IMG/VR virus record: IMGVR_UViG_3300029913_000052
Span: 1-41,015 of that record
Direction: 5' to 3' (one strand)
DNA: 41,015 nucleotides
From: a virus
Shown here: piece after piece, positions 29,140 through 29,349 of the stretch
Position numbering within the stretch: the first letter of the stretch is position 1
Layout of the letters: the number at the start of each line of letters is the position of its first letter
The notes under the pieces: generated by a model
What the model was told of the DNA's origin: nothing
What the model saw: only the letters and a program-made list of their open reading frames with translations
Databases searched by the model: none
Program-made: the position numbers and the translations under genes

Positions 29140-29168
29140 AGTATGCTCTCGTAATAACAGATTGTCAA
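29140..29168 (-). promoter_or_regulatory. Leftward early promoter (TTGACA-17-CATACT)
   Basis: The minus strand carries a consensus -35 TTGACA (29168-29163), a 17-base spacer and -10 CATACT (29145-29140). The start of transcription would fall near 29133, at or within the start of the first leftward gene. The -35 lies in the left arm of the mirror-image region 29162-29327. A one-mismatch repeat (29113-29125) lies just downstream of the start. Confidence 0.7.
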
Positions 29169-29327
29169 GTGGTTAGCAAAGTATATATATAACTCATCAA
29201 AATTTAGAGATAGGTACCTGAAAGACTATAAGGCAGTTATGTAAATACATATTGATCTTAACGTGTATTAGGTGCCTATCTCTATATTTTAGCTGCTTAT
29301 ATACTTACTTTACTGACCACTTGACAA
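29162..29327. promoter_or_regulatory. Mirror-image divergent control region
   Basis: Two halves of 83 bases pair as an ungapped inverted repeat centred between 29244 and 29245, about 60 of 83 positions by my hand alignment. The outer 12 bases (TTGTCAAGTGGT / ACCACTTGACAA) are perfect and contain both -35 boxes. An inner block TAGAGATAGGTACCT (29205-29219) faces AGGTGCCTATCTCTA (29270-29284) with one mismatch. Each half probably carries the same operators for a regulator that controls both transcription directions. Confidence 0.8.
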
Positions 29328-29349
29328 CAGGTTGTTACGTCGTTAAATA
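29321..29349 (+). promoter_or_regulatory. Rightward promoter (TTGACA-17-TAAATA)
   Basis: The consensus -35 TTGACA (29321-29326), 17-base spacer and -10 TAAATA (29344-29349) face right. The -35 is the exact mirror image of the leftward one about position 29244.5. The transcript would have a ~560-base leader containing the 38-bp tandem hairpins before the TerS gene. A degenerate repeat (TATACTTACTTTA, 29300-29312, 11 of 13) sits just upstream. Confidence 0.65.

Follow-up and report, generated by a model that had tools for sequence, protein, structure and literature searches.

A mirror-symmetric candidate control region at the divergence point of a podovirus genome

Why is the DNA between two opposite gene blocks of a virus an imperfect mirror image of itself, and what might such symmetry do? 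The window, which is the whole stretch of DNA analysed here, is a viral contig of 41,015 bases from a podovirus of about 41 kb. A sibling contig crosses its two ends with 8 extra bases, so the window is a near-full, circularly permuted genome. The leftward genes (12774-29131) encode helicases, a primase of the AEP type, a family A DNA polymerase and a ParB-family protein. The rightward genes, from 29912, encode the large terminase subunit (TerL), portal, capsid, tail and internal virion proteins. From this gene content the two directions would be "early" and "late", respectively. The mirror region spans about 190 bases at the point where the two blocks diverge, and no gene lies between its arms. 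Its parts and neighbours are as follows.

28196-29131, minus strand: first leftward gene, an orphan of 311 aa with a probable leaderless start, in the same geometry as in relatives
29113-29125, no strand: one-mismatch copy (TAAAGTTACTTGA) of the dispersed palindrome TAAAGNNNCTTTA, just inside the first leftward gene
29140-29145, minus strand: left -10 box CATACT; a CATA-type -10 at 17 bp is also seen in relatives
29150-29232, minus strand: left arm of the mirror, matching the right arm at 62 of 83 positions, ungapped
29162-29173, minus strand: left copy of the ACCACTTGACAA box, facing outward
29163-29168, minus strand: left -35 box TTGACA, inside ACCACTTGACAA, paired with CATACT at 17 bp
29205-29219, plus strand: left copy of the inner block, TAGAGATAGGTACCT, a candidate factor-binding site
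29238-29251, no strand: central palindrome TATGTA-AA-TACATA, read from the sequence
29257-29339, plus strand: right arm of the mirror, an ungapped inverted copy of the left arm
29270-29284, minus strand: right copy of the inner block, TAGAGATAGGCACCT, a candidate factor-binding site
29316-29327, plus strand: right copy of the ACCACTTGACAA box, identical to the left copy and facing outward
29321-29326, plus strand: right -35 box TTGACA, perfect, mirroring the left box
29344-29349, plus strand: weak and uncertain right -10 candidate TAAATA at 17 bp, with alternatives at 16 or 19 bp
29397-29472, plus strand: tandem pair of 38-bp repeats able to form hairpins, within the rightward leader; one copy in the siblings
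29912-30547, plus strand: protein of 211 aa in the terS position, upstream of TerL, with no family match
30563-32098, plus strand: TerL

The initial annotation described an 83-base sequence that occurs twice in inverted orientation without gaps, and this is borne out. The best ungapped pair has arms of 83 nt that are 75% identical, lie 24 nt apart and are centred at 29244.5. Its mirror score is 36.8; 200 dinucleotide shuffles of the 1 kb around it never gave more than 15.6, and 15 whole-window shuffles never more than 14.0. A longer version has arms of 94 nt at 72% identity, and self-folding of the region gives z = -9.5. Rfam matches here are to microRNA hairpin models and score far below the gathering thresholds; they are caused by the inverted repeat itself and were set aside.

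Each arm carries the same conserved pieces, namely a GTTRTTACG spacer, the ACCACTTGACAA box, an AT-rich stretch and the inner block AGGYACCTATCTCTA, and their spacing is equal in both arms without a gap. The elements had been called identical; this is true of the -35 block and not of the arms as wholes, which are 75% alike. The common inner block is present in both arms as claimed, and the similarity said to run on into the spacers is real in the form of GTTRTTACG. The inner block has two copies in the whole genome, even when 3 mismatches are allowed. In each arm its centre and the -35 are separated by 47.5 bp, which would place it at about -82 if the promoters are canonical; the p4 site of phage phi29 lies near -82.

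Both outward TTGACA boxes are 76 nt from the mirror centre. On the left, TTGACA-N17-CATACT matches the consensus at 10 of 12 positions and is probably a real promoter. The ATG at 29131, in frame with the first leftward gene, comes only 8 nt after this -10, so the leftward message would be leaderless. A pattern of TTGACA-N17-hexamer-N6..9-(G/A)TG occurs twice in the window (82 kb, both strands), and one occurrence is the left promoter. The AlphaFold model of the 311-aa protein is too poor to use (pLDDT 47). The right-hand promoter is weaker than the left, with a poor -10 and no ATG or GTG after it, and the gene in the terS position begins about 550 nt downstream of the right box. The idea of a control region duplicated in inverted orientation, its -35 boxes facing outward, is upheld, and relatives back the left promoter (48 of 62 subclade loci, see below). 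As for the same switch serving both directions, the duplicated boxes are there; the shared two-way switch itself can only be proposed, because the right -10 is weak and the subclade has a clear promoter on the rightward side only.

Two sibling contigs are identical across the mirror and therefore give no test of it; they differ from the window by one copy of the 38-bp tandem hairpin repeat. A pentapeptide-repeat gene (27416-27796, minus strand) shows gaps or repeat shifts relative to the sibling contigs and probably varies in repeat number. The rightward leader also holds two 29-nt direct repeats (29611-29639 and 29781-29809) that are 76% alike. Both have a promoter-like spacing ending in TACACT, and in the second a copy of the dispersed palindrome lies between the hexamers.

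This dispersed palindrome, the 13-bp TAAAGNNNCTTTA, has 36 copies in the window against 0.04 expected from shuffles, or about one per 1.1 kb. Copies run the whole length of the window (e.g., 517, 3091, 7834, 23999, 34467 and 34737), in coding and non-coding DNA alike, and several overlap a start codon (TTTATG). Siblings excepted, it was not found in the other loci examined at that stage, and the mirror arms hold it only as degenerate copies. The window also encodes a protein of the ParB/RepB/Spo0J family (25628-26713, minus strand) that scores above the NCBIfam cut-off and has weak similarity to nucleoid occlusion protein. This protein is a candidate binder of TAAAGNNNCTTTA; the palindrome may be a ParB-family site, or else a stoperator-like or start-associated element.

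The mirror sequence of the window is itself present in near-identical siblings only. The nearest database record, MW202510, has the same genome layout and no ungapped mirror. A search of a genome contig database for the motif pair returned three single matches, about the chance level, among which a Calothrix plasmid match was rejected as its context is not mirrored. More distant phages were reached through TerL alignments, and mirror symmetry was scored in the 2.5 kb upstream of TerL at 60 loci including the window, whose own mirror sits at -1319 relative to TerL in non-coding DNA upstream of terS/TerL. Ten of the 60 score above 17; the highest values are 16.6 among 720 shuffles and 14.0 among 60 downstream controls. 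All ten belong to a single part of the TerL tree comprising 22 rows, and the remaining 37 rows contain none, a split that is weakly supported. Two further TerL sets contain 67 loci of 149 that score at least 17 (control maximum 14.8), unevenly distributed with 61 of 73 around L040 and 6 of 76 around L010.

These mirror regions occupy the same place in the related loci, and their sequence is unrelated to that of the window. In several phages the whole region is one imperfect palindrome, of 367 nt in L010, 368 nt in L040, 350 nt in L041 and 235 nt in L027. The notion that the mirror is unique to the window's lineage was dropped once such wider mirrors were found; a first whole-locus scan had taken arms up to 130 nt from the centre and so passed over them. 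Hits in L008 and L098 were rejected as evidence, being coding repeats. The initial annotation had suggested looking for the symmetry in relatives and regarded its absence there as counting against the idea; many relatives do show mirrors. Its remark that such an arrangement is unusual for a podovirus fits most TerL relatives, in which mirrors are rare, and fails for one uncultivated subclade, in which they are nearly universal.

TTGACA also occurs in the arms of L010 and L027. Several of these copies face inward and have no -10, so they lend the promoter reading no support; there the hexamer looks to be largely a site motif and not a -35. Other repeats were noted in these loci. L010 has five 21-nt palindromic repeats of the CGTATTC-N7-GAATACG type in non-coding DNA to the left of its mirror (4242-4765). 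L032 has a near-perfect 39-bp palindrome around AAGTCATT-N7-AATGACTT (3222-3260); blocks related to it occur in L040 and L041, and L282-L345 have a GTAAGTC-TTGATAA block. The L032-type palindrome is possibly the site of a second factor.

The uncultivated subclade L282-L345 reveals a more elaborate form of the symmetry. In 26 distinct regions, short sites form a grid at fixed distances from the centre (26, 35, 81, 100, 111 and 120 nt) in both arms, with the site at 81 reversed. An exact 6-mer fills 5 to 12 of these positions per region. The site sequence is specific to the phage (GTGTGA, GTGTCT, GTGTAC, GTTGAC, TGTGAC, GTCAGG or TCTAGT), and a phage's own site is rare elsewhere in its locus. 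Within one phage the change affects almost every site, and the two arms alike. The two arms of one phage have a mean likeness of 36.4 compared with 21.1 between phages, a difference reached in none of 2000 permutations, although the permutation tests, like the tree, were run on related sequences and overstate the strength of the result.

L283 and L310 offer a close view of this change. They are 93% identical downstream and have the same promoter sequence, while at most positions their sites differ in one direction, AGAC/GTCT versus TGAC/GTCA. Differences affect 36 of 136 positions inside sites and 36 of 189 outside. Since the region also differs outside the sites, the finding is a shared direction of change and not a change confined to sites. 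In L027, four copies of a longer site lie at ±39 and ±114, and its 42-kb genome has no other good copy.

To the right of the grid, the TTGACA-N17-hexamer-N6..9-(G/A)TG pattern is present in 48 of the 62 loci with enough sequence. In controls it was found once on the reverse strand and never in TerL coding sequence. The -10 is mostly of the CATA or CATT type or TTTACA, and the start codon is that of terS, which is thus predicted to be leaderless. To the left, no -35 box has a constant position and about 1 kb separates the grid from the nearest leftward gene; hence no divergent promoter pair is demonstrated in the subclade. About 1 kb left of the grid, L282 has two related divergent ORFs (1737-1967, minus strand, and 2013-2351, plus strand) that form a second inverted duplication, a pair also present in L302 and L304. 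Mirror hits near -1800 in some subclade loci were not counted for the grid, as they reflect an apparent inverted gene duplication.

How far does the window share this design? It has in common with the subclade its genome place, its mirror symmetry, a promoter/leaderless geometry on one side, and a candidate site 25-39 nt from the centre; this is the span of its inner block copies and also where the inner sites of the subclade (±26 and ±35) sit. The clear promoter is on different sides, left in the window and right in the subclade: at the window's mirror, a start codon 6-9 nt after the -10 is found on the left side only (29168, minus strand, with ATG 29131). The window region has no enriched 6-mer of the grid kind and one inner block per arm. 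The sequence of its arms resembles that of no relative, and its TerL is 40-49% identical to those of the subclade. As neither the arrays, nor any sequence, nor the side of the clear promoter is shared, the window can be said to work like the subclade regions and is not a proven member of their class. By layout, and not by sequence, it may be likened to a compact two-promoter version without repeated arrays, whose element would do the same job as the subclade grids.

The reading that best accommodates these observations, to which we give a probability of roughly 58%, is that the region is a mirror-symmetric promoter-operator element bound by a putative factor at the divergence point of the genome. 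Each arm would consist of an outward -35, an AT-rich stretch and the inner block AGGYACCTATCTCTA 47.5 bp further in. A putative DNA-binding factor, probably phage-encoded, would occupy both inner blocks and jointly set leftward and rightward transcription, possibly through bridging of the two arms. A leaderless mRNA for the first replication-side gene would start from the leftward promoter, and the rightward promoter would serve the packaging and structural genes through a leader of about 550 nt. In L282-L345, the same design would appear as a grid of up to 12 sites beside the terS promoter, with a site sequence that turns over in concert. A family-library search of the flanking genes found no regulator.

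The chief rival to such a promoter-operator switch is a bidirectional replication origin, in which an initiator would bind the arms as inverted iterons flanking a core rich in AT, and the promoter would be that of a neighbouring gene. Iteron origins do have inverted arrays around an AT-rich core and do undergo concerted site turnover. The sites are concentrated at one place per locus, as with the four good sites of L027 that occur here only in 42 kb; the region is AT-rich (GC 34% versus 45%); and the window's cumulative GC skew has its minimum in this part. The skew minimum is however equally explained by gene orientation, the grid adjoins a conserved -35/-10 and leaderless start that an origin does not need, and no initiator was identified. 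An origin is unlikely, and still the alternative to be taken most seriously.

Considerably less probable is that the small terminase, whose gene is adjacent, binds the region as a packaging (pac/cos) signal. The L282-L345 grid lies immediately upstream of terS, and pac sites are often near terS. A mirror-symmetric signal, however, sets no packaging direction, and the same TerS start (KRTNAAG type) is found in phages with differing site sequences. Slightly more doubtful again is a partition centromere, in which a ParR-like protein of the ribbon-helix-helix type, or a ParB-like one, would bind tandem 9-11-bp repeats and site specificity would serve as incompatibility. The sites bound by ParR proteins are direct repeats of 10-11 bp close to promoters, and specificity differs between families (PMC9426499); the window does encode a ParB-family protein. 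Yet its mirror region has no repeat array, the better candidate for a ParB site is TAAAGNNNCTTTA, which the arms hold in degenerate form, and neither ParA, ParM nor ParR is among the proteins searched. The least credible of these alternatives is a recent inverted duplication without function: such duplications do arise and the sequence is confined to the window's lineage, but arms that are only 75% alike have kept the inner block and the -35 block as well as the spacing, and relatives have comparable regions in the same position, with a geometry that is fixed. Also rejected were a protelomerase (hairpin telomere) site and an attachment site, as neither such an enzyme nor an integrase was found among the proteins searched.

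The promoter-operator reading extends to a bolder and more tentative proposal. The mirror regions might represent a new class of phage master control element, a mirror nucleoprotein scaffold of up to 12 sites at fixed geometry. Its recognition sequence would be replaced in concert between close relatives, at nearly every site and in the two arms at once, as a specificity or immunity-like system of uncultivated podoviruses; the window would be a minimal member with two sites and two promoters. A mirror grid of this kind was not found described in the open-access literature, which is weak evidence of novelty; the proposed mirror-image control switch appears to be previously undescribed. Divergent promoter-operator regions are well known in phages, whereas one that mirrors itself and whose sites all change together at fixed spacing is not known. 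If the sites bind one factor, they provide a natural series for studying matched specificity changes in a DNA-binding protein and its dozen sites. They would also open a first way into gene timing for a large podovirus group for which no cultured member was found and in which the best database match to a subclade TerL, itself metagenomic, is 48% identical.

The closest working analogue of the proposed mechanism is the p4 switch of phi29, a podovirus of Bacillus, in which one factor switches both directions with the host RNA polymerase (PMC3100819). In its A2c/A2b-A3 early-late switch, p4 acts with p6 and inverted-repeat sites lie between the early and late promoters (PMC3100819). The p4 consensus CTTTTT-N15-AAAATG has no match in the mirror region at 2 mismatches. 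The phi29 genome is protein-primed and linear, whereas the window has a family A DNA polymerase; the phi29 late promoter lacks a good -35, whereas TTGACA is perfect on both sides of the window's mirror.

Phage lambda combines, at OL/PL and OR/PR, an outward promoter pair with duplicated operators and helically spaced sites, and looping is possible. The window likewise has an outward promoter-like pair and duplicated candidate operators. Unlike in lambda, its arms are 24 nt apart with no repressor gene between them, and neither a CI-like repressor nor an integrase was found among the window proteins searched.

The concerted change of grid sites resembles the repressor/stoperator sets of cluster A mycobacteriophages, whose many operators and stoperators vary in sequence together with the cognate repressor (PMC6550527). 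Stoperators are asymmetric and genome-wide, in contrast to grid sites, which form one mirror-symmetric cluster, and to the window motif, of which there are two copies in total. Like the grid, ParMRC centromeres and iteron origins have tandem short repeats at about one helical turn and family-specific sites (for ParR, PMC9426499). Mirror symmetry at fixed offsets and an adjoining terS promoter are features of the grid and are not defining for either of these systems.
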